From Muribaculaceae bacterium (GTDB taxonomy: Bacteria; Bacteroidota; Bacteroidia; Bacteroidales; Muribaculaceae): DNA of 64,000 nt. How positions within the stretch are numbered: position 1 is the first letter of the stretch; each line of letters starts with the position of its first letter. The notes under the pieces were generated by a model. It searched no databases, was not told the origin of the DNA, and saw only the letters and a program-made list of their open reading frames with translations. Below are positions 14,837-31,072 of this stretch, piece by piece. The translations under genes and the position numbers were made by a program. The stretch is from assembly GCA_910573745.1 (NCBI GenBank), contig CAJSYI010000004.1, positions 1-64,000 on the forward strand, written 5' to 3'.

Positions 14837-15783
14837 AATTCGTCAGTCTTCATTAAGAACTTTTCGGCATCAAGAGCCGCACGGCAACCGGTTCCGGCTG
14901 CGGCTATGGCCTGACGGTAAATCGGGTCGGCGCAGTCGCCTGCGGCAAAGACACCGACAACGCTGGTGGCCGTGGTGGGAGCCTTTGTTACAACGTATCC
15001 CTCTTCGTCAAGTTCAATCTGACCGCGGAACACGTCTGTGTTGGGCTTATGGCCTATGCCAAGGAAAAATCCGTCGATTGCGATGTCGAAAGTCTCTTCA
15101 TTCTCTTTGCCGAGATTGCGCACGATGCGGGCACCCTGAACCTCTCCTTCTCCGAAAAGTCCAGACGTGTTGCAGTTGAAAAGCACCTCGATGTTTTCAC
15201 GCTCCATAACGCGCCGTTGCATTACGTCGGACGCACGGAGATGATCCTTGCGCACAATCATATACACTTTCTTGGCAAGGGTAGAAAGATAAAGGGCTTC
15301 TTCACAAGCGGTGTCCCCGCCACCGACAACAGCTACAGTCCGCTTACGGTAGAAGAAACCGTCGCATGTGGCACAGGCACTCACTCCCATACCTCTGTAT
15401 TTCTCCTCATCGGAAAGACCGAGATACTTGGCCGACGCACCCGTGGAAATGATTACCGTGTCTGCCACTACAAGGTCGCCACGGTCGTCTTCACACACGA
15501 ACGGACGCTTGGAGAAATCCACCTTTGTGATGATGCGTGAACGTATGTCGGCTCCGAATCTCTCAGCCTGCTTACGTATCATGCCCATCATCTCGTTTCC
15601 GTCGATTCCTTCAGGAAAACCGGGGAAATTCTCTATTTCAGAAGTCTGAGTAAGCTGCCCTCCCGGCTGTATTCCTTCGTATATCACCGGATTGAGGTTC
15701 GCACGAGACGCATAGATGCCGGCTGTATAGCCTGCCGGGCCTGAACCGATGATCAGCACCCTGGTATTTGTTGTTTCTGCCAT
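14833..15783 (-). CDS. trxB: Thioredoxin-disulfide reductase
   Basis: Cytosolic flavoenzyme that reduces thioredoxin with NADPH. The FAD-binding loop is IIGSGPAGYTAGIYASRA near the N-terminus, the redox pair is in CATCDGFF (about 139-146), the NADPH loop is VVGGGDTACEEALYL, and the FAD-binding C-terminal block is GVFAAGDCADPIYRQA. At 316 aa it is standard. It overlaps the dCMP deaminase gene, and thioredoxin is also needed by aerobic ribonucleotide reductases, so the pair concerns deoxynucleotide supply (inference). Confidence 0.96.
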   Translation of the reverse strand: MAETTNTRVLIIGSGPAGYTAGIYASRANLNPVIYEGIQPGGQLTQTSEIENFPGFPEGIDGNEMMGMIRKQAERFGADIRSRIITKVDFSKRPFVCEDDRGDLVVADTVIISTGASAKYLGLSDEEKYRGMGVSACATCDGFFYRKRTVAVVGGGDTACEEALYLSTLAKKVYMIVRKDHLRASDVMQRRVMERENIEVLFNCNTSGLFGEGEVQGARIVRNLGKENEETFDIAIDGFFLGIGHKPNTDVFRGQIELDEEGYVVTKAPTTATSVVGVFAAGDCADPIYRQAIAAAGTGCRAALDAEKFLMKTDEL

Positions 15784-15829
15784 AATGTGATGTTGTTCTT
15801 TTAGCGGCTTCCTTTTTATAGGAAACCGG

Positions 15830-16459
15830 TCATCTTAAGTCTATAATCTTTATTTTGGGATATTTGTTCTTAGGATACTCGAAATCAGACGCAGGAAGGG
15901 ATTTCCCGTAGGAAAACTTAGTGATTGAGACAGCAGTAACAGAGCCGTCAGATGCCTTCACACTTATCTTGGCCGGAACAAGTGTCGAAGCGTTGATTTC
16001 CACAGTGGCGTTCCTGATTCCCTGTTTCCGGCTCTTGGGAGTCAGTACTATGATTTTCTTCGTTGCGGTGGAACCCTTGCCATAGGCGCAATTATAACCG
16101 GACACTCCACCTGCCAGACAGGTCAGCGGATTTGTCTCGGCAAGTTCAGAGGCGGTAGGGACCACAAGCGTTGTCTCTCGCGACGCAGCACTGTAGGTCC
16201 AAAGATATTTGCCGTTATACCACGAAGCACTGCCGGGTGCCTGAACGGAAAATCTCTTCCCGCTTATCTTAAGCGTACCCGATCCGCTTGTGCCTCCACC
16301 TGAAAAGACAAAAGAGGAAGAAACGCTACCGGCCTTTGCAATCTTTTGCGAAGCGCGGTTGAGCAACTGCATTGCAGTCTCCGCCGAGGCTGCCATAGAC
16401 AAGCCCAGAATCATAGCCACGGCAATGGCCAATATTCTTCTTGATGCCGACATAGTCAT
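15830..16459 (-). CDS. LolA-like periplasmic lipoprotein carrier
   Basis: A 209-aa exported protein with a signal peptide (RRILAIAVAMILGLSMAASA) and the LolA/LolB-type fold. Visible signs are the amphipathic start (ETAMQLLNRASQKI), FVFSGGGTSGSGTLKISG, WYNGKYLWTYSAASRETTLV and the closing LPASDFEYPKNKYPKIKIIDLR. LolA shuttles lipoproteins across the periplasm to the outer membrane. Here that role is inferred from the family. The ATG at 16453 is an alternative start. It lies directly after ftsK, an arrangement I recall for other Bacteroidales. Confidence 0.8.
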   Translation of the reverse strand: MTMSASRRILAIAVAMILGLSMAASAETAMQLLNRASQKIAKAGSVSSSFVFSGGGTSGSGTLKISGKRFSVQAPGSASWYNGKYLWTYSAASRETTLVVPTASELAETNPLTCLAGGVSGYNCAYGKGSTATKKIIVLTPKSRKQGIRNATVEINASTLVPAKISVKASDGSVTAVSITKFSYGKSLPASDFEYPKNKYPKIKIIDLR

Positions 16460-16485
16460 TCTATCTTCATTTTAACTATAAACGT

Positions 16486-19110
16486 TCAATGCAACTGACT
16501 TAGTATGGACTCCAGCCCCATCGCGTCCACCAGCACCGAACGAGGCTTTCCGCCAGTGGACGGCCCTACTATTCCGGCAGCCTCAAGCTGGTCCATTATG
16601 CGTCCGGCCCTGTTGTATCCAATCGAGTAGCTACGCTGTATGGCCGATGTGGAAGCGGTGTTTGACTGAATCACACGACGTGCAATCTCCTCGAACAGCG
16701 GATCCCGGTCTTCGGCGAAACTGCTTCCGTGTCCGCCCAAATCGTCAGATCCGGAAACCACCGGTTCAGGAAGTATGTATGCCCCCTGCGGGTAAGGCTG
16801 ACGACTGACGTATTCACAGATTGACTCCACTTCCGGCGTGTCAATGAAAGCACATTGGACTCGAGTCATCTCCGAATTGTTGCTCACAAGCATATCGCCA
16901 CGTCCGATAAGCTGCTGCGCCCCGGTCGTGTCAAGAATAGTCTTGCTGTCCACGCCTGAAGACACCTTGAATGCTATACGTGCCGGAAAATTGGCCTTTA
17001 TGATTCCTGTGATTACGTTCGTAGAAGGACGCTGAGTAGCGATTATTACATGAATGCCCACTGCCCGCGCCTTTTGGGCAAGTCGCGCAATAGGCATCTC
17101 GACCTCTTTTCCCGCAGTCATAATCAGATCCGAGAACTCATCGACAATCACAACTATATACGGAAGATAGCGATGCCCTTCAAGCTCGCTGAGCCTGCCG
17201 GACTTCACCTTCTCGTTGTATTCCTCCACATTGCGCGAATTGCCTTTCAGGAGCTGATACCGGTTGTCCATCTCCACGCAAAGCGAACTCAAAGTTGCCA
17301 CGGCCTTTGACATGTCTGTAATGATTGGCTCCTCTTCATCAGGAAGCTTTGCCAGATAATGCTTCTCAATCTTGGCGTAAAGGCTGAATTCAACCATTTT
17401 AGGGTCAATCATGACAAATTTCAGCTCATCAGGACGCTTACGGTAAAGAAGCGAAGATATGATCGCATTAAGCCCCACGGACTTTCCTTGGCCTGTGGCA
17501 CCGGCAACAAGCAGATGCGGCATTTTAGCAAGGTCGGCGATGAACACATCATTGCTGATGGTGGAACCAAGTGCAATCGGAAGTTTATAACGTGAGTCGG
17601 CAAACTTCTTGCTCTGTATCACCGTACGCATCGACACCACCTGAGGGTCTTTGTTGGCCACCTCGATTCCCACAGTGCCGCGTCCCGGAATCGGAGCAAT
17701 GATGCGTACTCCTATGGCAGACAAGGAAAGGGCTATGTCGTCAACCAGATTTCTGATTCTTGCAATCTTGACACCTTTGTCGGGAACTATCTCATAAAGC
17801 GTTACCGTAGGGCCTACCGTCGCCTCTATGCTCACTATCGGGATTCCGAAATCAAGCAATGTCTTACGTATGCGTTGCTGGTTGTCCTCCTGTTCCTGGG
17901 TGTCAACGCTTATCTTCGTCTCTCCAGGCCGGAGCAGATCGGCAGACGGGAACCTGTAGCGAGTTATGCCCGGTTCATTGCGGGGGCGCAATCCGTCCGA
18001 CTGTGCAATCGTGTTGACGTTGACCACCATCGTGTCGCCATCACATCCATCCTTGCTTACCGGAGTCTCAGCCGCTTCAGACAAAGGAGTTTCTTTTACA
18101 GCTTCAGGCTCAGGCTCGTCTTGGTCTTCACATTTATATACGTATTCATCAGAATCATTGTCGTTAACGGCATCGTCATGCCTCTCATCCCCTGGTTCAA
18201 AGCGCATAAAGGAGTCTTCCGGATCCACATCTTCCGTCTCGTGCACATTCTCTCCTGATATCGCCGCATCGATGCGCTCCTGCATTGCCATCTCTTCAAT
18301 CACCGCAAGGCGGCGACGCTCCTCTTCTTCAGCAGCACGCTTCTCCGCAAGGCGAGCATCCCGGGCCTTCTTGATTTTAAGAACCCACTTCACAATGTCG
18401 CGGAGACATATCACCACGAACACTGCTATCAGAAACAGACAAACAATCACGGCTCCGGACCATCCGACAAACGAGATTATGAATTCATTCACATAACGGC
18501 CGTCATATCCGCCCCAATTGACCACACTGTCGGACGCAATCGTTGCAAACCCGACAACCATCGAGACTATCAGCAGCGCAACAACGCACTTTATGGTGAA
18601 ATCAACTGATTTGAAACGTGGACGTCCGGCAAGAAGCTTAAGCGTCATGCCGTACAGCCATACAAGAATCACCACGGAACCGAGTCCGAAACTTCTGTTT
18701 ATCAGAAAATCTGACAGTCTTGCCCCACCCTCGCCGCCAGCATTGCGTATATCTTTGGCCGTGCCTATTGACATAGACTCTATGGCAGCCATATCGTCGA
18801 TGCAGCTACTGACATACGAAATGAAGGAAATAGTGAGATAGACACCCAAAAAGCCCAGAAAAATGCCCAAAAGGAGACGCACGTTGAGCGAACCGGCCCA
18901 TTCCTTCACTTTTGAAACGAAAGTCTCCGCACCATCATTTTTGGCATCGCGCACCTTTTTCCGTCGCGCACCATTAGAGTTGCCGTTCTTCTTTCGCCTC
19001 ACGTTCTGTCCTGTTTCGGACACAACAGGTTTCTCCGGACTCCTTTCTGCCTCGGACTGCTTGTCTTCGTAATATATTTCGGGATTGTAATCGTCGTATT
19101 TAGTTGCCAT
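16486..19110 (-). CDS. ftsK: DNA translocase FtsK/SpoIIIE
   Basis: Septal motor that pumps chromosomal DNA and helps dimer resolution at division. I start at the ATG at 19108-19110 (MATKYDDYNPEIYYEDK, 874 aa). The frame is open 36 codons upstream, but those residues do not look like FtsK. In order: four membrane helices (about 70-250), an acidic linker (about 270-380), the RecA-like motor with Walker A GATGQGKS and Walker B VVIVDEFSD, and the C-terminal winged-helix gamma domain (AIQRSYSIGYNRAGRIMDQL) that reads KOPS-like DNA signals. It heads the minus-strand run. Confidence 0.95.
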   Translation of the reverse strand: MATKYDDYNPEIYYEDKQSEAERSPEKPVVSETGQNVRRKKNGNSNGARRKKVRDAKNDGAETFVSKVKEWAGSLNVRLLLGIFLGFLGVYLTISFISYVSSCIDDMAAIESMSIGTAKDIRNAGGEGGARLSDFLINRSFGLGSVVILVWLYGMTLKLLAGRPRFKSVDFTIKCVVALLIVSMVVGFATIASDSVVNWGGYDGRYVNEFIISFVGWSGAVIVCLFLIAVFVVICLRDIVKWVLKIKKARDARLAEKRAAEEEERRRLAVIEEMAMQERIDAAISGENVHETEDVDPEDSFMRFEPGDERHDDAVNDNDSDEYVYKCEDQDEPEPEAVKETPLSEAAETPVSKDGCDGDTMVVNVNTIAQSDGLRPRNEPGITRYRFPSADLLRPGETKISVDTQEQEDNQQRIRKTLLDFGIPIVSIEATVGPTVTLYEIVPDKGVKIARIRNLVDDIALSLSAIGVRIIAPIPGRGTVGIEVANKDPQVVSMRTVIQSKKFADSRYKLPIALGSTISNDVFIADLAKMPHLLVAGATGQGKSVGLNAIISSLLYRKRPDELKFVMIDPKMVEFSLYAKIEKHYLAKLPDEEEPIITDMSKAVATLSSLCVEMDNRYQLLKGNSRNVEEYNEKVKSGRLSELEGHRYLPYIVVIVDEFSDLIMTAGKEVEMPIARLAQKARAVGIHVIIATQRPSTNVITGIIKANFPARIAFKVSSGVDSKTILDTTGAQQLIGRGDMLVSNNSEMTRVQCAFIDTPEVESICEYVSRQPYPQGAYILPEPVVSGSDDLGGHGSSFAEDRDPLFEEIARRVIQSNTASTSAIQRSYSIGYNRAGRIMDQLEAAGIVGPSTGGKPRSVLVDAMGLESILSQLH

Positions 19111-19164
19111 TTCATTCTTTATGTCTGGGCTTGTCAATCTGACCGTTTCAGAGAAAAGCAAATG

Positions 19165-19172
19165 CAAAGATA
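19165..19172 (-). promoter_or_regulatory. -7 element for the ftsK run
   Basis: Minus-strand TATCTTTG fits TAnnTTTG and sits 54 bases upstream of the ftsK start chosen here, which also argues against the longer frame. No clear -33 box. Confidence 0.45.
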
Positions 19173-19263
19173 CTACAAAAATACGGTTCCCAGAATGGTC
19201 AGACCATATTTTCCGCATTTAAATTTGTGAACACCCATAAAAAACAAACGGGGCTTTACAGTC

Positions 19264-20205
19264 TCAAACGGCGACGCTTTCCGGCACCGTGTCGGATTCA
19301 GTTTCCGGGAGAGTTTCCGGAGACATTTTTTGTATCGTGTCGCTGCCTTCCGAAGACATTACAGAATCACTATCTGCCACGGCTTTTACCTGATAGCCTT
19401 TCTGTGGCACGGCTCTTTTCCCGCCCGGCAGAGTCGTGATTGAGGCTATGGAGAAACCTTCCGACTCGTTGACGGCCATATCCCTTGGCCCAGGGCTCAC
19501 TATTATCGGCATTCCAATCTGGACATATTCCACAAGCTCCAATATGTTCTCATTGGTGAGCCTTATGCATCCGTGGCTCGCCCTATGTCCTATGCTCCAT
19601 GGAGCCACGGTGCCGTGTATCCCTATCTGAGAAGTGTTGGGGCATTTAAGCCTGACGAACCTCGGGCCGAACTGTCCCTTCTTCGGACTCGTAACACCAT
19701 TGTCATCGGTGAAAAGCCAGTCGGTGCTGTCATAAATGCCTTCCGCCGTGAAAAACCCCTCCGGTGTCCGGGAATCCGCCTTCCGGTGCTTGGTGCCATA
19801 ATTCTTTGCACACGCCATCCCGTATTTCTTCAATACCTCGCCATACCTGCTGTACAGAATCACCTTCATAGAAGCCTTGTCAACCACTATGAAACGATCA
19901 TACTCATTATTGAGGAGCTTCTCGGCATAATCAAGCTCTTCCGAAGCCATAGTCGGTATGATGCCACGGGAATATTTGTCCCAATCACCTGATTCACGCA
20001 TATATTCCAAGGCTTCTTGCGACGAAGCAAACTTCAAAACCACCCGTTCAGGCTCCTTGGACACCGTGTCTTCAGTCTCGGCGACACCGACACCGGTGTC
20101 CATGACAGATTCGTCCGTCCCTTTTTCAGAAGGCCGCGAACAGCCGACCGCCAGAATAAATGCTGGAAGCAGGAACTTGGGCAATCGGCAAAATATGATG
20201 TTCAT
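19264..20205 (-). CDS. L,D-transpeptidase lipoprotein (YkuD family)
   Basis: Periplasmic enzyme that makes 3-3 peptidoglycan crosslinks or attaches proteins to the wall. It has a lipoprotein signal (FLLPAFILAVGC, Cys 22), an acidic linker, an N-terminal helical part, and the YkuD catalytic block IGIHGTVAPWSIGHRASHGC, whose His and Cys (in SHGCIRLTN) are the catalytic pair. The C-terminal 70 residues are a Ser/Glu/Thr-rich tail of no known role. At 313 aa it is longer than the minimal enzyme. It diverges from the AmgK-RapZ gene, so wall crosslinking and wall recycling share this intergenic region. Confidence 0.9.
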   Translation of the reverse strand: MNIIFCRLPKFLLPAFILAVGCSRPSEKGTDESVMDTGVGVAETEDTVSKEPERVVLKFASSQEALEYMRESGDWDKYSRGIIPTMASEELDYAEKLLNNEYDRFIVVDKASMKVILYSRYGEVLKKYGMACAKNYGTKHRKADSRTPEGFFTAEGIYDSTDWLFTDDNGVTSPKKGQFGPRFVRLKCPNTSQIGIHGTVAPWSIGHRASHGCIRLTNENILELVEYVQIGMPIIVSPGPRDMAVNESEGFSIASITTLPGGKRAVPQKGYQVKAVADSDSVMSSEGSDTIQKMSPETLPETESDTVPESVAV

Positions 20206-20251
20206 ATACTATTCGTTGATTACAGAAAAAACAGATAGACTTGATTCTTGT

Positions 20252-20278
20252 TCAGTCATCATCAGTGATGATGACTGA
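20252..20278. repeat. 27-bp perfect palindrome in the L,D-transpeptidase leader
   Basis: Two 13-base arms around a single central base (arm CAGTCATCATCA plus one T/A pair at the ends). It lies between the predicted start point of the L,D-transpeptidase transcript and its ATG. It could be an operator or a leader hairpin. The T-run (TTTTTT) comes only about 17-20 bases later on the minus strand, so a simple terminator is unlikely. Confidence 0.75.
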
Positions 20279-20298
20279 CAAATCAATGAAAAAGCGTG

Positions 20299-20330
20299 CA
20301 AATTTATATGATTTCCACGATATATTCAAA
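20299..20330 (-). promoter_or_regulatory. Bacteroidota-type promoter for the L,D-transpeptidase
   Basis: Minus strand TTTG (20327-20330), 20-base spacer, TAAATTTG (20299-20306). It predicts a leader of about 87 bases that contains the palindrome. Confidence 0.72.
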
Positions 20331-20348
20331 TTTTACGGCATCTACGCG

Positions 20349-20379
20349 TTGCACACCTGACAGGAGTTTGCTAATTTTG
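20349..20379 (+). promoter_or_regulatory. Promoter for the amgK-rapZ fusion and murU
   Basis: TAATTTTG at 20372-20379, with a partial -33 TTGC at 20349-20352 and a 19-base spacer. The leader before the ATG at 20406 would be only about 21 bases. Confidence 0.6.
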
Positions 20380-20405
20380 CATCAGCATCTCGCATTACAA
20401 CGACA

Positions 20406-21854
20406 ATGGACACTATGCCGGACCCTAATATAGCCCCTCTCAAAGCCCTTTATGCCAATCATTTCGGCAAAGAGACAGATTCTGTCGCGCGACTTCCGCA
20501 GGCAGGAAGCGACCGAATATATTACAGACTTTGGACCAAAGACAAAGAAGAATCAGCAATCGGAGTCTTCGGACCCGACAAAGCCGAGAACCTTGCTTTC
20601 CAGAACTTCTCCCGTGTTTTCCAGAAAGAAGGAATCCCGGTTCCCGGTTTGCTCAGCCCCATATCCCTGAGCAATCATTATCTTATCGAAGACCTCGGCG
20701 ACGTATCGTTGTTTTCGCTCATTGTGAACAGAGACAGCAAAAGCAAAGGAATAGAAGAGGATAGCATGCGGCTTCTCGCGCGAATGCAGACAGTCCCTGC
20801 TGACAGCTGGCATCAGTTCCAGCTGTCCGGAGATTTCTGCCGACGACAGATTTTATGGGACCTTAACTATTTCAAGTATTCGTTCGTCAAACCTGCGGGC
20901 ATCGGATTCGACGAAGAGAGGTTGGAGAACGACTTCGACAGGTTTGCCGAAGACCTATACATACCGCAGCACTTATGGGGATTCATGTACAGAGATTTCC
21001 AAAGCCGCAATGTTATGGTCAAAGACGGAAAAACGCACTTCATCGACTATCAGGGAGGACGTTTCGGACCATGCGTCTATGACGCGGTCTCTTTCGTCAC
21101 CCAAGCAAAAGCGAAGATTCCAGAAGCCCGACGCACGGAGCTTCTGAAAACATATGCAGACGAGTTCTCAAGGATAAAAGGAACGAATCCGGTTGAGATA
21201 CTGCGATATGCAAAGATTTTCGCGCTCTTCAGGACACTGCAAGTGCTTGGAGCATACGGCTTCCGAGGACTCGTGCAGCACCGCGCACATTTCGTGGAAA
21301 GCATTCCTGACGCACTTTCAAATCTCGGGAACCTGATGCAGGAAGAGATGGCAAATAGATATCCGGAGCTAAAGGGCATTGCCGACAAGCTCACAAAGGA
21401 ACAAAGATTCAATGCAATAAAAGAGCCGCCGGGAAAACTGACTGTCAGCATATTCAGTTTTTCATACAAAAAAGGCTATCCTGACGACTTCTCAGGCAAC
21501 GGCGGAGGATTCATGTTCGATTGCCGCGCATTGCACAATCCCGGACGCTACGAAGAATACAAACAGCTCACCGGCCGAGACAAGCCTGTGGCCGATTTTC
21601 TTGAACAGAGAGGTGAAGCGGATAGATTCCTCAGGTCGGCATGGGAAATGACCGACAAATCCGTGGAAAGATACATCAAACGGGGATTCACCAATCTACA
21701 AATCGGTTTCGGATGCACAGGAGGACAGCATAGGTCGGTCTACTGTGCCGAAGCCACGGCAAGACACATAGCCAACGCGTTTCCCGGTGCAGTGGTCTTG
21801 CTGACGCACCGAGAACAAGGGATTTATGAAACGCTGAACTCGACCAGACAATGA
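20406..21854 (+). CDS. AmgK-type sugar kinase fused to a RapZ C-terminal domain
   Basis: A two-domain protein of 482 aa. Residues 1-340 are an aminoglycoside-phosphotransferase fold like AmgK, the kinase that phosphorylates MurNAc (or GlcNAc) at C1: catalytic FMYRDFQSRNVMV (Asp 197, Asn 202) and metal-binding FIDYQGGRFGP (Asp 214). Residues 345-482 match the C-terminal domain of RapZ, including DDFSGNGGGFMFDCRALHNP, TGRDKPVADFLE and GFGCTGGQHRSVY (about 435-447). In E. coli RapZ this domain binds glucosamine-6-phosphate and the sRNA/QseE partners. The RapZ N-terminal P-loop domain is absent and is replaced by the kinase. The end overlaps murU by ATGA. Kinase substrate is inferred from the neighbour. 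Confidence 0.85.
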   Translation: MDTMPDPNIAPLKALYANHFGKETDSVARLPQAGSDRIYYRLWTKDKEESAIGVFGPDKAENLAFQNFSRVFQKEGIPVPGLLSPISLSNHYLIEDLGDVSLFSLIVNRDSKSKGIEEDSMRLLARMQTVPADSWHQFQLSGDFCRRQILWDLNYFKYSFVKPAGIGFDEERLENDFDRFAEDLYIPQHLWGFMYRDFQSRNVMVKDGKTHFIDYQGGRFGPCVYDAVSFVTQAKAKIPEARRTELLKTYADEFSRIKGTNPVEILRYAKIFALFRTLQVLGAYGFRGLVQHRAHFVESIPDALSNLGNLMQEEMANRYPELKGIADKLTKEQRFNAIKEPPGKLTVSIFSFSYKKGYPDDFSGNGGGFMFDCRALHNPGRYEEYKQLTGRDKPVADFLEQRGEADRFLRSAWEMTDKSVERYIKRGFTNLQIGFGCTGGQHRSVYCAEATARHIANAFPGAVVLLTHREQGIYETLNSTRQ

Positions 21855-22579
21855 AAGCAATGATATTGGCTGCAGGCCTCGGCACAAGACTCAGGCCGTG
21901 GACTCTGCAACATCCCAAAGCGCTCGTCCCTGTAGGAGGCATACCTATGCTCCATCGCGTGATCACAAGCCTGACGGCTCAAGGATTTGATGACATCACA
22001 GTAAACATACATCATTTCGGCCAGCAAATCATCGATTTCCTGAACTCAAAAGAATACGGAACACGCATAAACATAAGCGACGAACGCGGGCATCTACTCG
22101 ACACAGGAGGCGGGATAGTCCATGCCTCAAAGTTTTTATGTGCAGATGCGGAACCATTTTTAGTGCATAATGTTGACATACTGTCTGATGCAGACCTATG
22201 CGGACTTATGAAGGCACATATCGAAAACAAAGCCGACGCTACATTGCTTTTAAGCGACCGCAATTCATCGCGGAAATTGGCAATGAACGAAAACAACTGT
22301 CTGGTCGGATGGCACAACTGCACAACAGAAGAATACCGTCCAGCCTCCTACATCCCACATTCAAGCGACAAGGAATTCGCATTCAGCGGCATACATTGCA
22401 TATCACCAGCTTTGGCAGACAGGATGTCGCGCAAATACGGCGGAAGGCCCTTCCCGATAATGGATTTTTACCTTGAAGAATGCGCCGATTCCGACATCAG
22501 ATGCGAAGTGTGCAGCTTCTCTATGATTGACATAGGGAAGCCAGAGACATTGACACGAGCCAATTCCATATTCATCTGA
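21851..22579 (+). CDS. murU: MurU-like sugar-1-phosphate nucleotidyltransferase
   Basis: A 242-aa nucleotidyltransferase. The signature AMILAAGLGTRLRPWT at the start binds the NTP, HPKALVPVGG follows, HNVDILSD holds the metal-binding Asp, and IDIGKPETLTRA closes the fold. In MurNAc salvage MurU turns MurNAc-1-phosphate (from AmgK) into UDP-MurNAc. The immediate translational coupling to the AmgK domain is the main reason to call it MurU rather than another sugar nucleotidyltransferase. If both act so, the two genes provide the anomeric recycling path that bypasses de novo UDP-MurNAc synthesis. Confidence 0.8.
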   Translation: MKAMILAAGLGTRLRPWTLQHPKALVPVGGIPMLHRVITSLTAQGFDDITVNIHHFGQQIIDFLNSKEYGTRINISDERGHLLDTGGGIVHASKFLCADAEPFLVHNVDILSDADLCGLMKAHIENKADATLLLSDRNSSRKLAMNENNCLVGWHNCTTEEYRPASYIPHSSDKEFAFSGIHCISPALADRMSRKYGGRPFPIMDFYLEECADSDIRCEVCSFSMIDIGKPETLTRANSIFI

Positions 22580-22582
22580 ATA

Positions 22583-22614
22583 TTTGCAAATGTCAGGAAT
22601 TTGGAGTAAATTTG
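22583..22614 (+). promoter_or_regulatory. Bacteroidota-type promoter for the NlpC/P60 gene
   Basis: TTTG 22583-22586, 20-base spacer, TAAATTTG 22607-22614. Full consensus, about 50 bases before the ATG at 22664, so the endopeptidase gene has its own start even though it follows murU closely. Confidence 0.75.
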
Positions 22615-22663
22615 CGTTTGTAAACCACGACGATACTTTTCATTCCCGACATTCCCCCTGACG

Positions 22664-23236
22664 ATGCGACTCTACTGCACTGACAAGAAGACTACCCGTT
22701 ATGACAACCTGCTTGTTGCCATAGCGTTGATTCTTGTTTCCATCATCTCTTCATGCGGCTCTTCAAAGATTGCGACAAAGGCATCGCCTTCATCTGAAGA
22801 CTATCTTAAAGAAATAGAGTCAACTTATAATCTGGACAAAGAGCAACGGAAACTCATAGAGGAAGCCTTCTCATGGTTAGGAACCCCATACACATACGCG
22901 ATGCAAGACAAAGGAGTGGGCACCGACTGCTCAGGCATGGTGATGTCTGTCTACAGGGATGTTGCAGGATGCCTCCTACCACGCAATTCAGCCAAACAGG
23001 CGGAATTCTGCATAAAGGTGAAAGAAAAAGATGCCAGAATCGGCGACCTTGTGTTTTTCGCAACCGGCAAGGATCCTGAAAAGGTGTCGCATGTCGGAAT
23101 ACTTGTTGACGACAACAGATTCATCCATGCATCAACTTCAAAAGGCGTTGTGGTGTCGAGGCTCCACACACCATATTATATATCAAGGCTGAAAATGTAC
23201 GGACGTGTGCCGCGAAACCGTGCGGAAGTGGACTGA
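22664..23236 (+). CDS. NlpC/P60 family lipoprotein endopeptidase
   Basis: Peptidoglycan peptidase, probably cutting between D-Glu and mDAP in stem peptides. It has an N-terminal membrane/lipoprotein signal (VAIALILVSIISSC, Cys 31). The NlpC core holds the catalytic Cys 89 in GTDCSGMVMSV, His 143 in KVSHVGILV and His 155 in RFIHASTSKG. At 190 aa it is a single-domain Spr/NlpC-type lipoprotein. It lies beside wall-recycling genes on the same strand, which fits a role in supplying turnover products. Confidence 0.9.
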   Translation: MRLYCTDKKTTRYDNLLVAIALILVSIISSCGSSKIATKASPSSEDYLKEIESTYNLDKEQRKLIEEAFSWLGTPYTYAMQDKGVGTDCSGMVMSVYRDVAGCLLPRNSAKQAEFCIKVKEKDARIGDLVFFATGKDPEKVSHVGILVDDNRFIHASTSKGVVVSRLHTPYYISRLKMYGRVPRNRAEVD

Positions 23237-23313
23237 AAGAAATGTATATACGAAACATAAATTATACATTATGAAAATCATACATCATTTGCCGAAAATT
23301 TATCCTTTTTTAT

Positions 23314-23344
23314 TTTGCCAATAAAGAAAAAGTCTATAATTTTG
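23314..23344 (+). promoter_or_regulatory. Bacteroidota-type promoter for the citrate lyase operon
   Basis: TTTG 23314-23317, 19-base spacer, TAATTTTG 23337-23344. Full consensus. The leader before citD would be about 140 bases, long for this window, which leaves room for leader control. I see no strong hairpin in it. Confidence 0.75.
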
Positions 23345-23488
23345 CCTTCGATTTGAGGACGTGATAATAGTCGTGGCAAACTATATGCACAGAATCCGAT
23401 CTTGACCTTAAGGAAATACCGAAACACTCTGAAAAGCCAGATGATTCGTCTGACGGCTCTCGGAATCAAACAAACAATAAACCCAATA

Positions 23489-23767
23489 ATGAATCTGACC
23501 AATTCACAAGCCGGAACCCTCGAATCCGGCGACATCATGATCCGTATCGCCCCAGGCAACGGAAACGGCCTTGAAATCAACCTGGACAGCACTGTGGCAT
23601 TCCAGTTCGGCCGTCAGATTGAAAATGTGATTCGCGAAACCCTTACCGGACTTGGCATCAACGACGCGATAGTGGATGCCACTGACAAAGGTGCGCTTGA
23701 CTGCACCGTGCGTGCCCGTACCACAGCAGCCGCAGTCCGTGCCACCGGAAAAGACGTTTGGCAATAA
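23489..23767 (+). CDS. citD: Citrate lyase acyl carrier protein (gamma subunit)
   Basis: Carrier of the 2'-(5''-triphosphoribosyl)-3'-dephospho-CoA group of citrate lyase. I start at the ATG at 23489 (MNLTNSQAGTLESGD, 92 aa), which matches the family length; an ATG 29 codons upstream adds an unlikely extension. The attachment serine is Ser 13 in AGTLESGDIMIRI, and FGRQIENVIRETLTGLGI and DCTVRART are family blocks. It opens the citrate lyase gene set. Confidence 0.9.
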   Translation: MNLTNSQAGTLESGDIMIRIAPGNGNGLEINLDSTVAFQFGRQIENVIRETLTGLGINDAIVDATDKGALDCTVRARTTAAAVRATGKDVWQ

Positions 23768-23856
23768 AAACTCTCAAGTTAACCGAATTCATACAGTACC
23801 GCAGCGGGCGGCATTCCTGCAAAGGCTCCGCTCCATCGGGCTAATCAATCCCCAAT

Positions 23857-24747
23857 ATGGAAAGACTCAGAAGAACTATGATGTTCGTCCCCGGAAACAA
23901 TCCGGGCATGATGGCCGACGCACACATCTACGGTCCCGACTCTATAATGCTCGACCTTGAAGATTCTGTAACAATGGCCGAGAAAGACACGGCTCGCCTG
24001 CTTGTCTACAATGCACTGAAGAGCATCGATTACGGCGACACCGAAATGGTGGTGCGCATCAATCCGCTCAACACGCCCTACGGAAAGAAGGACATCGAGG
24101 CCGTAGTGAAGGCCGGCGTACACGTAATCCGTATGCCCAAGACCGAAACCGCAGAAGAAGTGGTGGAGGTAGAGCGTGAAATCGAGCGTGTGGAAAAAGA
24201 GATTGGATGCCTCGGCCGCACACAGATAATGGCAGCCATCGAATCCACTCTCGGCGTGGTCAACGCATACGCGATTGCCACCGCCTCAAAGCGCATGATG
24301 GGCATAGCGCTCGGCGCAGAAGACTACAGCGCCAACCTCAAGACCCAGCGCACACCAGGCGGAGAAGAGCTGCGACTCGCACGCGAGACAATTGTCGTGG
24401 CCGCACGCGCAGCCGGCATCGACGCACTCGACACCGTATACTCCAACCTCAACGATATGGAAACTTTCAGAAAAGAGGTTGAATTCATCAAGACACTCGG
24501 CTTCGACGGCAAGTCCATCATCAATCCTCGCCAAATCGAGGTGGTCAACGAAGTCTTTGCTCCCTCCGAAAAAGCAATCGAGAAGGCACGCACCATCATT
24601 GCAGCCATCAAGGAGGCTGAGAAGAAAGGCTCGGGCGTGATTGCTGTCAACGGAAAGATGGTAGACCGTCCCGTGGTGATCCGCGCACAGCGCACAATCG
24701 AGTTAGCTCTTGCATCAGGAATCTTAACAGAGGAGGATTTGAAATGA
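23857..24747 (+). CDS. citE: Citrate lyase beta subunit (citryl-ACP lyase)
   Basis: Splits citryl-ACP to oxaloacetate and acetyl-ACP. At 296 aa it is a single HpcH/HpaI aldolase-type barrel, with FVPGNNPGMMADA (CoA-group binding), LDLEDSVTMAEKD (metal-binding Asp/Glu), VVRINPLNTPYG (Arg), MAAIESTLGVVNA (Glu), GAEDYSANLKTQRT and KSIINPRQIEVVNE. The stop overlaps the citF start by ATGA. Confidence 0.94.
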   Translation: MERLRRTMMFVPGNNPGMMADAHIYGPDSIMLDLEDSVTMAEKDTARLLVYNALKSIDYGDTEMVVRINPLNTPYGKKDIEAVVKAGVHVIRMPKTETAEEVVEVEREIERVEKEIGCLGRTQIMAAIESTLGVVNAYAIATASKRMMGIALGAEDYSANLKTQRTPGGEELRLARETIVVAARAAGIDALDTVYSNLNDMETFRKEVEFIKTLGFDGKSIINPRQIEVVNEVFAPSEKAIEKARTIIAAIKEAEKKGSGVIAVNGKMVDRPVVIRAQRTIELALASGILTEEDLK

Positions 24748-26282
24748 ACACATATAAAGAACGTATGGCTCTTGTAGAACAGGAAGCCAAGGCTCTCAAC
24801 AAGAAAGTCTACGACGACACGCTTCACCATAAAGACCCGACGGCCAATGAACTCCGTCAGGACAAAAGCCCTAAAATCGCCACTCTCGAGGAGGCAATCC
24901 GCAAGACCGGCCTGAAAGACGGAATGACAGTGTCTTTCCACCACCATTTCCGAGGCGGAGACAAAGTCGTGAATATGGTTGTGGACAAGCTCGCTGAAAT
25001 GGGATTCAAGAACCTGCATCTTGCCGCTTCCAGCCTTTCTGACGTACACAAGCCGCTGATTGAGCATATCAAGAACGGCGTCATCACCCAGATTTCCACT
25101 TCCGGCCTGCGTGGCGACCTTGCCAAAGAGATTTCAGGCGGACTGATGGAAAATCCTGTCATTTTCCGTAGCCATGGCGGACGCGGCAGCGCAATCGCTT
25201 CCGGCGACCTTCATATCGACGTGGCCTTCCTCGGTGCCTCTTCTTCCGACGCACTCGGCAACGCATGCGGATATTCACGTTCCGAAAACGCAAAATCGAT
25301 CTGCGGCTCACTCGGATACGCTCTTCCTGACGCAGAATATGCAGACAAGGTAGTGATACTGACCGACGACCTTGTGGCCTATCCCAACACACCCAATTCC
25401 ATCTCTGAGCGTAATGTGGATTATGTAGTGGTAGTGGACAGCGTAGGCGACAGCTCCAAGATTTCATCGGGTGCAATCCGCGACACCAAAAATCCCCGCG
25501 ACATCCTCCTTGCGCAGCAGGCTGCCAAGGTAATCATCAACAGCGGCTACTTCAAGAACGGATTCTCTATCCAGACCGGATCCGGCGGCGCATCGCTCGC
25601 TGCCGTGAAGTACATCCGCAACAAGATGATGGAAGACGGCATAAAGGCTTCATTCGCACTCGGAGGCATCACCGCCCATATGGTAAAGATGCATGAAGAA
25701 GGTCTTATCGAACGCCTCATAGACGTACAGTCATTCGACAAGGTTGCCGCAGAATCGCTCAAGAACAATCCGATGCACAAAGAGGTTACCGCAGTAGAAT
25801 ACGCCGCTGCCGACGACGCCGGTTCCGCAGTGCACTATCTTGACATCGTGATTCTTTCCGCCCTTGAGGTGGACGTCAACTTCAACGTGAACGTGCTCGT
25901 TGGAAGCGACGGAATCATACGCGGAGCCATCGGCGGCCATCCCGACACTGCAGCGGATTCCGCACTTTCAATCATAGTATGCCCGCTTCTCCGTGGCCGC
26001 ATACCGTGCGTAGTGGACGAGGTAACCACCCTTATCACTCCTGGATCGACAGTAGACGTGATTGTAACAGAATATGGCATTGCTGTCAATCCGCGCCGTC
26101 CGGAGCTTGCAGAGCGTCTTAAAAAGGCCGGTCTGAAGATTGTGGACATCGACTCGCTGAAAGAAAAGGCAAACAGCATCATCGGCGATGCAGACCCTCT
26201 GCCTTTCGGAGACAAAGTGGTCGGAGTGGTGATGAACCGCGACGGCTCTGTTATGGACGTAATCCGCAACATCGAAGCCTGA
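24744..26282 (+). CDS. citF: Citrate lyase alpha subunit (citrate:acetyl-ACP transferase)
   Basis: Exchanges acetyl-ACP for citryl-ACP in the citrate lyase complex. The 512-aa size is normal. Blocks seen are MTVSFHHHFRGGDKVVNMV (about 64-82), FRSHGGRGSAIASGDLHIDV, QTGSGGASLAAVKYI, ALEVDVNFNVNVLVGSDG and ITPGSTVDVIVTEYGIAVNP, all typical of CitF and related CoA transferases. It is translationally coupled to citE. Confidence 0.95.
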   Translation: MNTYKERMALVEQEAKALNKKVYDDTLHHKDPTANELRQDKSPKIATLEEAIRKTGLKDGMTVSFHHHFRGGDKVVNMVVDKLAEMGFKNLHLAASSLSDVHKPLIEHIKNGVITQISTSGLRGDLAKEISGGLMENPVIFRSHGGRGSAIASGDLHIDVAFLGASSSDALGNACGYSRSENAKSICGSLGYALPDAEYADKVVILTDDLVAYPNTPNSISERNVDYVVVVDSVGDSSKISSGAIRDTKNPRDILLAQQAAKVIINSGYFKNGFSIQTGSGGASLAAVKYIRNKMMEDGIKASFALGGITAHMVKMHEEGLIERLIDVQSFDKVAAESLKNNPMHKEVTAVEYAAADDAGSAVHYLDIVILSALEVDVNFNVNVLVGSDGIIRGAIGGHPDTAADSALSIIVCPLLRGRIPCVVDEVTTLITPGSTVDVIVTEYGIAVNPRRPELAERLKKAGLKIVDIDSLKEKANSIIGDADPLPFGDKVVGVVMNRDGSVMDVIRNIEA

Positions 26283-26392
26283 TTTCCGGATACGACCGAC
26301 AAGAATCTTCATAAATGAACGAAGGAATGGCTGCGGATCGCGCCAATCCCGCTATCCGCAGCCATTCCCAGCTTACCGCCACATCCGCCAAG

Positions 26393-26977
26393 ATGGAATC
26401 ACAACAAATCTCGCTTACCGAATTGCTTGATTCTCGCGACAGACGCCGCGACATGCAGCTGCGTCTGCTACAGGAGAATCCGGGCAAGACGCTTGTCGTG
26501 GTTACCATCGTGATTCCGGGAAATGTGAAACGCAATGCCGATTCGGAGGCCATTGCCAACGCCGCATGTGAATCAATAGAGAACGATTCCATGCTGAAAG
26601 CGCATTGCGAAGCCAAGAAAGACCTTATGACCGGTTTTGAGGCTTTCTATCTGACTGACCTTAATCCCGAAGACACAAAAGAAATCACGTCTATGATTGA
26701 AGACACCCATCCTTTGGGCAGGATGATGGACATAGATGTGATTGACAGCGGAGGCAACCAAGTGTCTCGCGCAAGACAAGGGCAACGTACACGCAGATGC
26801 CTTCTGTGCGGGAACGACGCACGCGTCTGTATGCGCGCATTCACGCATTCCCAAGAAGAACTATTGGCTGAAATCCATCGACGAGTATCTCTGTGGCTAT
26901 CAGGACGAGCGGGAAAAACCTGTCAGGCGACAGGACATCCTTCCAGTCCACTAATGACCTCAGCCGATGAACCATAG
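26393..26977 (+). CDS. citX: Apo-citrate lyase phosphoribosyl-dephospho-CoA transferase
   Basis: Attaches the triphosphoribosyl-dephospho-CoA prosthetic group to CitD. I start at the ATG at 26393 (MESQQISLTELLDSRDRRRD, 194 aa), although the frame is open from 26315. The family block is clear in GRMMDIDVID, RRCLLCGNDARVCMRAFTHS and EELLAEI. The N-terminal LLQENPGKTLVVVTIVIPGN also fits. The C-terminus past the CitX core is about 25 residues of no known similarity. Confidence 0.88.
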   Translation: MESQQISLTELLDSRDRRRDMQLRLLQENPGKTLVVVTIVIPGNVKRNADSEAIANAACESIENDSMLKAHCEAKKDLMTGFEAFYLTDLNPEDTKEITSMIEDTHPLGRMMDIDVIDSGGNQVSRARQGQRTRRCLLCGNDARVCMRAFTHSQEELLAEIHRRVSLWLSGRAGKTCQATGHPSSPLMTSADEP

Positions 26978-27012
26978 TTGACGTTTTTCAGTAATAATCA
27001 CCAATTTGACTG

Positions 27013-28782
27013 ATGTTCGGAGATTTTGAAATACGTGAATTGCCGCTCTCGCTGACGGCCACAAAAAAGAAAGTGGAATCATTTCTGCTTTCACAAGGAC
27101 TTCGTATGGAGAACCTTGACCGGTATTTCGGCATCTTCGACATGAACGACAATCTGGTCGGAGGAGGAGGGCTCCAAGAAAACGTCGTGAAGTGCATCGC
27201 GCTTTCAGAATCGACAAGAAACGAATCACTCACAAATCCGCTCATGAGCCGCATACGTGAAGCGGCAATGGCCGATGGCCACTACGACTTGCTCCTGTTC
27301 ACCAAGCCCGAAAACCAACGCATATTCGAGAGCCTCGCTTTCCATACAGTGGGAAAAGCCGACAAGGCTTTGCTTCTTGAAAGCAATCCCAGAGGCATAT
27401 CCGGATACTGCAAAAAACTGTCAGGCATTCTTCCACAGTCCAAGGAATCACGCAACGGCGTGATTGTCATGAACTGCAATCCGCTCACAAAAGGTCATCT
27501 GTTCCTGATAGAGGCAGCCGCCAAGCAAGTGGACTTTCTTTTCATAATACCCGTCATGGAAGGGGACTCGGAATATTCATATGCCGAACGGACAGCCATG
27601 ATGAAGGCCGCGACAAAGGACATACTAAACACAGCAGTCTGTCCCGGAAGCCAATACAGCATTTCACAAGCCACATTCCCGACATACTTCCTCAAAGACC
27701 TAAACGATGCGGCAAAGACACACATAGAGCTCGACCTCGACATATTCTCAAACCACATCGCTCCTGCACTAAATGCATCGGTGAGATTCGTCGGGACAGA
27801 ACCTTTAGATGCCTTGACCTGCGAATACAATGCGGTCATGAAACGCATATTGCCTTCCAAAGGCATCGAAGTCGTGGAAATAGAGCGCCAATCCTTAAAT
27901 GACATTGTGATAAGCGCATCAAAGGCAAGAACGCTTACAGAAACCGGAAACGCATCGGAAGCATTAAAGCTTCTGCCCGAAACGTCGGTGCCGTATCTGC
28001 TCGCCCATACGGCATGCCTGTCATTGAAGAAAGAACTTGAAGCAACCCCAAAGCCCGGACTTGTAGACCGCAATGACAACGGATCGCATACAGATATGGA
28101 TTTTTCCATTATGTCCCGCAGCATAGAAGCATTGAAACCATACTTCACGGAGTTTTCCCGTCTCGGCACCGACACTTCCCTCCCATCCCACGATGCAGTG
28201 GCCAAAGCCGGAATGGAGGCGGAAAAAGCCATGAAATCTGCCACCGGCGGAGTAAACACGCATCGTGGCGCGCTTTTCTGCATCGGACTCACCACCATCG
28301 CCGCGGCGAATGCATATCACAACACAGGTCATATCGAAGAGAACGGGCTGAGGGACAGGATAACACGTCTCGCCTCCGGATTTGCCGGAGAGAAAGATTC
28401 ACACGGCGGTGAGGCTCGCCGCAAATACGGCCTCAAAGGAGCCGCAGAAATGGCTCAGGATGCCTACTCCGAGCTATTCTCGGAATGGCTTCCTTTCTAT
28501 CGGAGTGTCAAAGAACGTAATGACGGTGCAATCCTCACGCTACTGAAGATAATGTCAACGCTTGAAGACACCAACCTCTATCACCGAGGAGGAGAAGAGG
28601 GAGCCGCTTTCGCCAAGGAAACGGCACGAGATTTGCTCAAAGACTGCAAAGCTTCGGCTTTGGAGAAAGCGAACGCCGACTTCATAGCCCGCAACCTCTC
28701 CCCCGGAGGAGCCGCCGATATGCTGGCCCTGACGTTTTTCATAGACTCGGTACTGCACAACGGCCCTGAAATTAACGAATAA
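27013..28782 (+). CDS. CitC-CitG fusion: citrate lyase ligase and triphosphoribosyl-dephospho-CoA synthase
   Basis: One 589-aa protein carrying two citrate lyase maturation activities. Residues 1-125 are the GNAT-like N-terminus of CitC, and 148-325 its nucleotidylyltransferase with NCNPLTKGHLFLIE (154-167, the HIGH-type motif) and ISASKARTLT. CitC acetylates the prosthetic group of CitD. Residues about 335-585 are CitG, which makes the prosthetic-group precursor from ATP and dephospho-CoA: ATPKPGLVDRNDNGSHTDMD (344-363), GGVNTHRGALFCIG, DSHGGEARRKYGLKGAAEMA. In Klebsiella and E. coli these are separate genes. Confidence 0.9.
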   Translation: MFGDFEIRELPLSLTATKKKVESFLLSQGLRMENLDRYFGIFDMNDNLVGGGGLQENVVKCIALSESTRNESLTNPLMSRIREAAMADGHYDLLLFTKPENQRIFESLAFHTVGKADKALLLESNPRGISGYCKKLSGILPQSKESRNGVIVMNCNPLTKGHLFLIEAAAKQVDFLFIIPVMEGDSEYSYAERTAMMKAATKDILNTAVCPGSQYSISQATFPTYFLKDLNDAAKTHIELDLDIFSNHIAPALNASVRFVGTEPLDALTCEYNAVMKRILPSKGIEVVEIERQSLNDIVISASKARTLTETGNASEALKLLPETSVPYLLAHTACLSLKKELEATPKPGLVDRNDNGSHTDMDFSIMSRSIEALKPYFTEFSRLGTDTSLPSHDAVAKAGMEAEKAMKSATGGVNTHRGALFCIGLTTIAAANAYHNTGHIEENGLRDRITRLASGFAGEKDSHGGEARRKYGLKGAAEMAQDAYSELFSEWLPFYRSVKERNDGAILTLLKIMSTLEDTNLYHRGGEEGAAFAKETARDLLKDCKASALEKANADFIARNLSPGGAADMLALTFFIDSVLHNGPEINE

Positions 28783-28825
28783 AACAAACTACTACATAAT
28801 CACTAACTTAAAATCAACCACCGAA

Positions 28826-31072
28826 ATGGTAGAACTCATCAAAGAAGGAGTTTATCTGAAAGACGGTAAACTCGTAGAGAAAGGCGCAGCCGGCCTTCCG
28901 ACTCCGGAAGAAGGACGCGAAAACACCATCGCTTACCAAATCCTCCGCAGCCATGACGTTGATGGCTCCAAAGGAGACAAGATGCGCATCAAATTCGATG
29001 CCATGATGAGCCACGACATCACTTATGTCGGAATCATCCAGACTGCACGTGCCAGCGGCCTTGAAAAGTTCCCCCTGCCATACGCAATGACCAACTGCCA
29101 CAACTCGCTCTGCGCAGTAGGCGGCACCATCAATGAAGACGACCACGTGTTCGGACTTTCCGCCGCAAAAAAATACGGCGGCATATACGTTCCTGCCAAC
29201 CAGGCCGTAATCCACCAGTACGCACGCGAGGCAATGGTGAAATGCGGCAACATGATTCTCGGCTCTGACAGCCATACACGCTACGGTTCACTCGGAACAA
29301 TGGGCGTAGGCGAAGGCGGCGGCGAGCTTGTAAAGCAGCTTCTCGAAAACACATGGGACATCAACGCCCCTGAAGTGGTGCTCGTTTGGCTGGAAGGCAA
29401 GTCCCGCAAAGGCATCGGCCCGCACGACGTGGCCATCTCTCTCGTGAAGGCTGTCTTCGACAACGGTTTCGTCAAAAACAAAGTGCTTGAATTCGCCGGC
29501 CCCGGTGTGAAGAACCTCCCCATCGACTTCCGCAACGGAATCGACATCATGACCACCGAAACCACCTGCCTCAGCTCTATCTGGATTACAGACGAGGAAG
29601 TGAAGAAGCACTATGACACTCATTGCCACAGCGAGAACTACAAAGAACTTCAGCCCAACGGCACTGCATACTACGACGGAATGATCCGCATCGACCTTGA
29701 CAAGCAAGAGGCCATGATCGCACTTCCCTTCCACCCGTCCAACGCCTACACTATCCATGAGCTTCAGGCAGATCCCGAACGCATCATGCGCGAAGTGGAG
29801 GAAGACGCAAAGAAGCGTTTCGGCGACAAAGTATGCGTTGACCTCGTAGGCAAAATCAAAGACGGCAAGGTGATGGCCGACCAAGGCATCATAGCCGGAT
29901 GCTCGGGCGGCACCTACGACAACCTCAGCCAGGCCGCGGCCATACTCCGCGACAAATCTGTGGGCAACGACTACTTCACAATCTCGGCATATCCGCAGTC
30001 AGTTCCCGTGTATATGGCAACTACACGCAACGGAATCGCCGAGGAGCTTCTCGAAGCCGGCGTGGTAATCAAACCGGCTTTCTGCGGCCCGTGCTTCGGT
30101 GCTGGCGACGTTCCGGCCAACAACGGCCTCTCGATACGCCACACTACCCGCAACTTCCCCAACCGTGAAGGCTCAAAGCCCGGCAACGGTCAGCTCTCAC
30201 TCGTCGCTCTTATGGACGCGCGTTCGATTGCCGCCACGGCTGCCAACGGCGGTGTAATCACTGCCGCCACTGACGTTGAATTCAACGACGACCACAAGCC
30301 TTACGAGTTCGATGCCAAGATTTACGAGCGTCGCGTATTCAACGGCTATGAAAAAGAGAACGCGCAGGAAGAGCTCCGCTACGGCCCGAACATCAAGGAC
30401 TGGCCCAAAATGTATCCGATGGAGAAGGACATGCTTCTCGAGCTTGCTGCAGTGATACACGATCCCGTTACCACTACCGACGAGCTTATCCCCTCAGGAG
30501 AAACTTCTTCCTATCGTTCCAACCCGCTCAAGCTGTCAGAGTTCGCACTTTCCCGCCGCGTGCCCGAATACGTCGGCATCAGCAAGCGCATACAGAAAGA
30601 AGACCTTGAGCGCCGCGACGGCAAATGCCCTGCCGAGGTAGAGAAAGTACTCGAGAAAGTAGGTGCAAAATGCAGCGAGACATCGTTCGGATCATGCGTG
30701 TTCGCCAACCGTCCCGGCGACGGTTCGGCCCGCGAACAGGCTGCGTCCTGCCAGAAGGTTCTCGGCGGCGATGCCAACATCTGCTACGAATACGCCACAA
30801 AACGTTACCGCAGCAACTGCATCAACTGGGGCATAGTGCCTTTCACCATCGACAAGGACACTAAATTTGACTACGAATCCGGCGACTACGTGTTCGTCCC
30901 TGGCATCCGTGAACTTATCCTCGGCGGCAAGGAAGAGGTTATGGCCAAGGTCATCACCAAGAACGGCGAAGTGAAAGACATCAAGCTGCACTTCTCCAAC
31001 CTCACCCCGACCGAACGCCAGATTCTCGCCGACGGTTGCCTCATGAACTATTACGCCGCACAGAAAAAGTAA
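28826..31072 (+). CDS. acn: Aconitate hydratase
   Basis: Interconverts citrate and isocitrate with a 4Fe-4S cluster. Its 748 aa suit the Bacteroidota/mitochondrial-like form. Blocks include LGSDSHTRYGSLGTMGVGEG, the cluster cysteine in GCSGGTYDN (about 359) and the pair in FCGPCFGAGDVP (about 419 and 422), and near the end YATKRYRSNCINWG. The third codon position is strongly C-rich, as in icd next door, which suggests high expression. It follows the CitC-CitG gene by 43 bases with no terminator in between, so it probably shares transcripts with the citrate lyase genes. Confidence 0.95.
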   Translation: MVELIKEGVYLKDGKLVEKGAAGLPTPEEGRENTIAYQILRSHDVDGSKGDKMRIKFDAMMSHDITYVGIIQTARASGLEKFPLPYAMTNCHNSLCAVGGTINEDDHVFGLSAAKKYGGIYVPANQAVIHQYAREAMVKCGNMILGSDSHTRYGSLGTMGVGEGGGELVKQLLENTWDINAPEVVLVWLEGKSRKGIGPHDVAISLVKAVFDNGFVKNKVLEFAGPGVKNLPIDFRNGIDIMTTETTCLSSIWITDEEVKKHYDTHCHSENYKELQPNGTAYYDGMIRIDLDKQEAMIALPFHPSNAYTIHELQADPERIMREVEEDAKKRFGDKVCVDLVGKIKDGKVMADQGIIAGCSGGTYDNLSQAAAILRDKSVGNDYFTISAYPQSVPVYMATTRNGIAEELLEAGVVIKPAFCGPCFGAGDVPANNGLSIRHTTRNFPNREGSKPGNGQLSLVALMDARSIAATAANGGVITAATDVEFNDDHKPYEFDAKIYERRVFNGYEKENAQEELRYGPNIKDWPKMYPMEKDMLLELAAVIHDPVTTTDELIPSGETSSYRSNPLKLSEFALSRRVPEYVGISKRIQKEDLERRDGKCPAEVEKVLEKVGAKCSETSFGSCVFANRPGDGSAREQAASCQKVLGGDANICYEYATKRYRSNCINWGIVPFTIDKDTKFDYESGDYVFVPGIRELILGGKEEVMAKVITKNGEVKDIKLHFSNLTPTERQILADGCLMNYYAAQKK

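Follow-up and report, generated by a model that had tools for sequence, protein, structure and literature searches.

An AmgK-like kinase fused to the RapZ C-terminal domain in Bacteroidota: a possible sugar-phosphate phosphatase in MurNAc recycling

Two of the described systems closest to the locus reported here serve as points of reference. The first is RapZ, the small RNA (sRNA) adaptor of E. coli. The cited passages on this protein describe its C-terminal domain (RapZ-CTD) as a tight dimer and report oxyanion binding (PMC5737377) and the binding of glucosamine-6-phosphate (GlcN6P; PMC9841335, citing Khan 2020; PMC7073468). According to the same passages, RNA binding is carried by K270, K281, R282 and K283 (PMC9841335, PMC7073468), H190A abolishes GlmZ cleavage, and C247S is inactive (PMC9841335). 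A further passage notes homology between the pocket and the cysteine-dependent tyrosine phosphatase loop, and proposes GlcN6P hydrolysis by RapZ as possible (PMC7199280); because this was stated there for E. coli, we credit the phosphatase idea for the domain to those authors. The second system is AmgK-MurU-MupP of Pseudomonas and Caulobacter; in the parts of the literature cited, the AmgK-MurU route largely substitutes for MurQ in Pseudomonas (PMC5371407; PMC13046382), and AnmK and AmgK together require MupP there (PMC5371407).

The window analyzed here is a stretch of 64,000 nucleotides from a Muribaculaceae bacterium. A single open reading frame on its forward strand (20406..21854, 482 amino acids) encodes an AmgK-like kinase domain (aa 1-306; 20406..21323) followed by a RapZ C-terminal domain (RapZ-C; aa 346-470; 21441..21815), and an ATGA overlap (21851..21854) joins the end of this gene to the start of a same-strand gene for a MurU-like nucleotidyltransferase of 242 amino acids (21851..22579). 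That both domains lie in one frame, as a preliminary description of this DNA had proposed, is borne out by Pfam and NCBIfam; its coordinates, its catalytic residues (D197 and N202) and the overlap were all correct when checked against the open reading frames and, for the residues, against 45/45 AmgK domains. An L,D-transpeptidase gene lies upstream of the fusion on the opposite strand, and an NlpC/P60 gene lies downstream of the pair. Adjacent AmgK-like and MurU-like genes are common to this locus and to the Pseudomonas and Caulobacter systems, as far as the cited passages describe the latter; the difference here is that RapZ-C lies within or between the two genes.

The kinase domain matches Pfam APH (aa 53-253, 9.4e-9), and its closest solved relative is 3csv (1.7e-25, profile A1). 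Its NCBIfam AmgK match (5e-9, 35.7 bits) falls below the equivalog cut-off of 550 bits (NF045759), and we therefore call it AmgK-like, its identity as AmgK being unproven. The residues E61, R196-D197-F198, R201-N202, I213-D214 and Q216 are invariant in 45/45 AmgK domains, fused and free, all of which have the APH-type catalytic residues D197, N202 and D214; judged by these positions, the kinase part looks active. For the 242-residue protein, MurU is the best-scoring of 42 NCBIfam families (1.5e-34, 119.8 bits, below the equivalog cut-off of 250 bits; NF045761). The nearest solved structures are 4y7t (3.3e-21), which we take to be MurU of P. putida, and then 8hhd, one name of which is N-acetylmuramate alpha-1-phosphate uridylyltransferase, both ahead of guanylyltransferases.

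Our preferred explanation, to which we assign a probability of about 0.42 as a whole, is that the gene pair encodes an anabolic MurNAc-recycling route (AmgK plus MurU) and that the fused RapZ-C is its third working part, a cysteine-dependent sugar-phosphate phosphatase performing a MupP-like step. AnmK or a MurK-type kinase would make MurNAc-6-phosphate, RapZ-C would convert this to MurNAc, the substrate of the attached AmgK (a reaction carried out by MupP in Pseudomonas), AmgK would make MurNAc-1-phosphate, and MurU would then make UDP-MurNAc. Within the pocket, C437 would attack the phosphate while the loop backbone and R443 hold it, with D372, H442 or H468 assisting. We infer the catalysis, the substrate and the order of steps from computed domains, invariant residues, fold, co-occurrence and gene order. 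RapZ-C may act like MupP without being MupP: MupP of Pseudomonas and Caulobacter is a HAD protein whereas RapZ-C has the RapZ fold, and no HAD family is found among the Pfam matches of the fusion protein.

The C-terminal domain has PF22740 in common with E. coli RapZ (2.2e-33, 115.4 bits against a cut-off of 27), and the fusion protein matches the C-terminal half of RapZ in NCBIfam (3.5e-28, below the equivalog cut-off). Structure comparison of the domain agrees with the RapZ fold, the point at which the preliminary description had named a mismatch as refuting its proposal; after RapZ, the nearest among the 50 structures listed are P-loop kinases, with a phosphofructokinase at rank 9. The fusion protein is not RapZ, the full-length RNase adaptor: it has a kinase where RapZ has its P-loop N-terminal half, and it lacks the basic RNA-binding tail. 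The P-loop domain (PF03668) is absent from the fusion protein and has 0 matches in the host genome, which carries a single RapZ-C.

The 49 RapZ-C domains of the phylum, the window protein included, were aligned with E. coli RapZ. The position of H190 is Gly in 49/49, K251 is replaced by Gln in 48/49, an aromatic residue takes the place of R238 in 49/49, K270 and the basic tail (K281, R282, K283) are not conserved, and a Gly-rich segment, mostly S-G-N-G-G-G, stands in place of a shorter E. coli segment. The loss of H190, K251, R238, K270 and the tail, the missing N-terminal domain and the lack of any Rfam match in positions 15000-30000 of the window all speak against a role as in E. coli, in which the domain would bind a Bacteroidota sRNA or mRNA and couple cell-wall sugar status to expression; we consider this very improbable, even though several RNA-path positions known from E. 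coli are retained (K170 as K/R in 47/49, R184 in 49/49, R196 as K/R in 44/49). Because these positions are mostly retained, we call RNA binding by the domain, on alignment grounds, unlikely and do not put it more firmly.

Judged by the alignment, the conserved residues of RapZ-C form an enzyme-like set. C247, T248, G249, G250, H252, R253 and S254 (E. coli numbering) are invariant in 49/49 domains and correspond in the window to the C-x5-R-S anion-pocket loop C437-T-G-G-Q-H-R443-S444 (E. coli C247-S254; 21714..21737). D182, R184, N188 and P189 (D372, R374, N378 and P379; 21519..21542) and H276 (H468; 21807..21809) are likewise invariant in 49/49. In the domain model, a strand spans residues 95-102 and a helix runs from 108, so that the Cys (C437, model residue 102) is predicted to close the strand and the Arg (R443, residue 108) to open the helix; the modelled loop thus lies between strand and helix, as in the cysteine-dependent tyrosine phosphatases (C-x5-R-S/T), and oxyanion binding is also common to the two, on the RapZ side from what the cited passage reports for E. 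coli. Profile comparison with 25 LMW tyrosine phosphatase sequences gave no homology (probability 0.9-4.7%), and the likeness is therefore one of motif; 0 of the 50 structures listed for the C-terminal domain are tyrosine phosphatases.

This pattern, in which C, H, R and S of the loop together with D182, R184 and H276 are kept in every domain, yet H190 is Gly in every domain, argues for a phosphatase; the loss of H190 beside an intact Cys-x5-Arg-Ser loop fits catalysis, as far as sequence can tell, no less well than it fits sensing. The same invariance could serve binding alone, and the chief competitor, the reading favored in the preliminary description, is an allosteric sensor: RapZ-C would tune AmgK up or down upon binding GlcN6P or another amino-sugar phosphate, with no chemistry of its own, so that MurNAc salvage keeps pace with de novo supply. 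We hold this to be quite possible, given the GlcN6P binding reported for the E. coli domain in the passages cited (PMC9841335 citing Khan 2020; PMC7073468) and the conservation of the anion loop in the phylum. Gly at H190 in 49/49 domains and the Gly-rich insert suggest, however, that the ligand may differ, and a pure binding function would not lead one to expect an invariant Cys, the C247S variant of which is described as inactive in E. coli. A phosphatase accounts better than a sensor for this Cys and for the distribution of AnmK described below.

The motif extends well beyond the phylum set. C-x5-R-[ST] is present in 18/20 varied proteins compared with the window domain (E. coli RapZ, 4 other canonical RapZ proteins, 1 Parabacteroides fusion, 3 plasmid proteins with the C-terminal domain only, and 11 from viral contigs; L167, from a Desulfosarcina plasmid and annotated as a gene in two pieces, was left out), and the H190 position is variable among the 20. 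The two exceptions are distant C-only proteins, one from a plasmid and one viral, in which Ala replaces the motif Ser; the plasmid protein also has Asp at H276. These substitutions count against a phosphatase.

RapZ-C occurs in 49/395 genomes of the phylum, and 50 genomes match a profile built on the AmgK part at E <= 1.9e-79, 49 of them being exactly the RapZ-C genomes; this coincidence counts in favor of the phosphatase explanation, and the strict co-occurrence with, and fusion to, a kinase would suit a regulator as well. Family f19 accounts for all 84 genomes with a more distant AmgK (1e-28 to 1e-49), none of which has RapZ-C. The 49 RapZ-C genomes comprise 37 with fusions and 12 with free rapZC genes. 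Of the free genes, 8 are flanked by amgK and murU and 1 is next to murU, its amgK being distant; for the other 3, neither gene is found within about 6 kb, and amgK is encoded elsewhere in the genome. MurU is seen in 39/49 RapZ-C loci within the DNA read (for some loci 1.5 kb on each side), and a Bacteroidaceae MAG encodes a single 760-residue AmgK-RapZC-MurU frame (L090, 3992-6271, forward strand). Fusion, intermediate gene position, neighboring murU and triple fusion all argue for a phosphatase within the route. More generally, co-occurrence and gene order tie the RapZ domain to AmgK and MurU, in agreement with the link to MurNAc salvage first suggested for this locus, and RapZ-C very probably works together with both proteins.

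The triple fusion, and the tight dimer described for the E. coli domain in the passage cited (PMC5737377), would also suit a scaffold or dimerization module whose sole task is to bring kinase subunits together or to retain MurU, so that MurNAc-1P is channelled. In such a module the C, H, R, S, D, R and H found in 49/49 domains would not have to be conserved, and the pair persists with its genes apart in 4/49 genomes, where amgK is distant from rapZC and both are still present; we regard it as improbable.

Two features of individual genomes may be recorded here. The three isolated rapZC genes precede genes for an MFS transporter (two) or endonuclease I (one); at L031 and L033 the MFS transporter gene directly follows the free rapZC, and amgK lies in another part of the genome. 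The only close-AmgK genome without RapZ-C (G009, locus L133) has directly adjoining amgK and murU genes and lacks AnmK and strong MurQ.

The search for the domain pair across genomes that the preliminary description had proposed found it widespread, and its mention of similar Bacteroidota fusions was accurate: a scan of a genome collection confirmed at least 585 stretches, and each of the best 80, which were kept, has a fusion-sized frame with the loop (C-x5-R-S in 80/80 fusions). Same-strand murU lies downstream in 57 of these best 80, whose sources are Bacteroides, Phocaeicola, Parabacteroides, Prevotella, Muribaculum and others, including single MAGs labelled Elusimicrobia, Delongbacteria and Calditrichia. 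The fusion is already in databases and is not new as a sequence. That of Parabacteroides distasonis (L164, 2963-4393) stands in RefSeq as 'RNase adapter RapZ', which is a misleading transfer of name; in the open-access literature searched we found no account of the AmgK-RapZ cassette or of a salvage role for RapZ-C.

Strong MurQ (E < 1e-40; 278 genomes, compared with 270 above the curated cut-off) is present in 258/261 AmgK-free genomes, 20/49 RapZ-C genomes and 0/85 AmgK genomes without RapZ-C, and because of this distribution we conclude that the AmgK route largely replaces MurQ, a feature common to the Pseudomonas system in the literature cited. Within family f18, MurQ is absent from 9/9 RapZ-C genomes and present in 15/15 without AmgK. 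The lack of strong MurQ in 29/49 RapZ-C genomes, against 3/261 AmgK-free ones, favors a phosphatase, whereas its presence in the other 20 provides another outlet for MurNAc-6P and counts against one. Strong MurQ and an AmgK match at E 1e-20 are both absent from three of the 395 genomes (G381 of f26; G056 and G315 of f19).

AnmK is found in 271 genomes (one weak match, in G216 at 1.2e-10, counted as present): 240/261 AmgK-free, 31/49 RapZ-C and 0/85 AmgK genomes without RapZ-C. AnmK and AmgK therefore coincide solely in RapZ-C genomes (31/31); the corresponding Fisher value among AmgK genomes (5e-18, uncorrected for kinship) overstates independence, because 84 of the 85 genomes without RapZ-C belong to one family, f19. 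In gene order and occurrence, RapZ-C fills the place of MupP. The AnmK pattern argues for a phosphatase, and a sensor leaves it unexplained. AnmK is present in 15 of the 29 RapZ-C genomes without strong MurQ and absent from 18/49 RapZ-C genomes, the host among them; these 18 count against a phosphatase, a sensor accommodates them, and AnmK dependence as a simple rule was rejected.

NamZ is the expected source of MurNAc without phosphate. NamZ (PF07075) is present in 32/35 RapZ-C genomes scanned and 6/6 scanned of f19, and was rejected as a separator of the two cassette types, leaving AnmK alone to carry the contrast with f19, a point against a phosphatase; none was found in the host genome. 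The f19 cassettes have the AmgK-MurU pair in common with the present locus and differ in their distant AmgK, in the absence of RapZ-C and AnmK, and in having NamZ and a transporter-like gene next. This amgK-murU-namZ order, followed by the putative transporter gene, was read in four loci (L134-L136 and L140), the reading covering five of the nine f19 loci retrieved.

A phosphatase requires MurNAc-6P, which MurK/NagK-type kinases, judged by family, could supply. PF01869 was scanned in 42 chosen genomes (35/49 RapZ-C genomes, G009 and 6/84 distant-AmgK genomes of f19), and all 13 AnmK-free RapZ-C genomes of f18, f36 and f47 have a strong PF01869 (MurK/NagK) match. Loci were read in 10 of these 13 genomes: 9 have the kinase beside an AmpG-like transporter cluster, and in the remaining one a single gene separates the two (the transporter was family-checked in 3 loci, scoring under the AmpG cut-off). 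The top NCBIfam model for the three kinases tested is that of a GlcNAc kinase, and the S-P-L segment of MurK is absent from both AmpG-side kinases aligned (n=2); these kinases may be GlcNAc kinases, which would weigh against a phosphatase. At L178 and L180, genes for a NagK/MurK-type kinase, an AmpG-like transporter and one GH3 protein that also carries a beta-lactamase-like domain stand in a row, in genomes that have neither AnmK nor strong MurQ.

The host genome has no PF01869 match and no strong MurQ; a search with a relative's kinase found a clear MurK/K1058-type protein, and this combination favors a phosphatase. The best solved relatives of the host kinase are 1zxo, 1zbs, 8ow9 ('Putative novel MurNAc kinase'), 8oqw and 8oqk, the last three of which are presumably the MurNAc kinases of T. 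forsythia described in PMC10465942. The MurNAc-specificity segment of MurK, S133-P134-L135, reads P-S-L in the host protein. PGP_bact, used as a stand-in for MupP, exceeded its cut-off in 0/50 genomes examined, and weaker HAD matches occur in 49/50; by family, these HAD proteins could have a MupP role, a further point against a phosphatase.

Through its partners the RapZ C-terminal domain is placed in a pathway other than the GlmY/GlmZ circuit, and the E. coli question of 2020-2022 about the chemistry of the RapZ pocket becomes directly testable. Should the domain prove to be a phosphatase, it would supply the step missing from MurNAc recycling in many gut Bacteroidota, and proteins named 'RNase adapter RapZ' would require a new name. 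A broader conjecture, which we consider doubtful, is that RapZ-C began as a cysteine-dependent amino-sugar-phosphate phosphatase, that its AmgK-fused form is the phylum's missing MurNAc-6P phosphatase, and that E. coli RapZ later turned the phosphate pocket to use on the RNA backbone. RapZ-C-type proteins are also carried by mobile elements, namely viral contigs (L153-L163) and actinomycete plasmids (L165, L166 and L172), mostly consisting of just the C-terminal domain, and their loop reads C-x-G-G-x-H-R.
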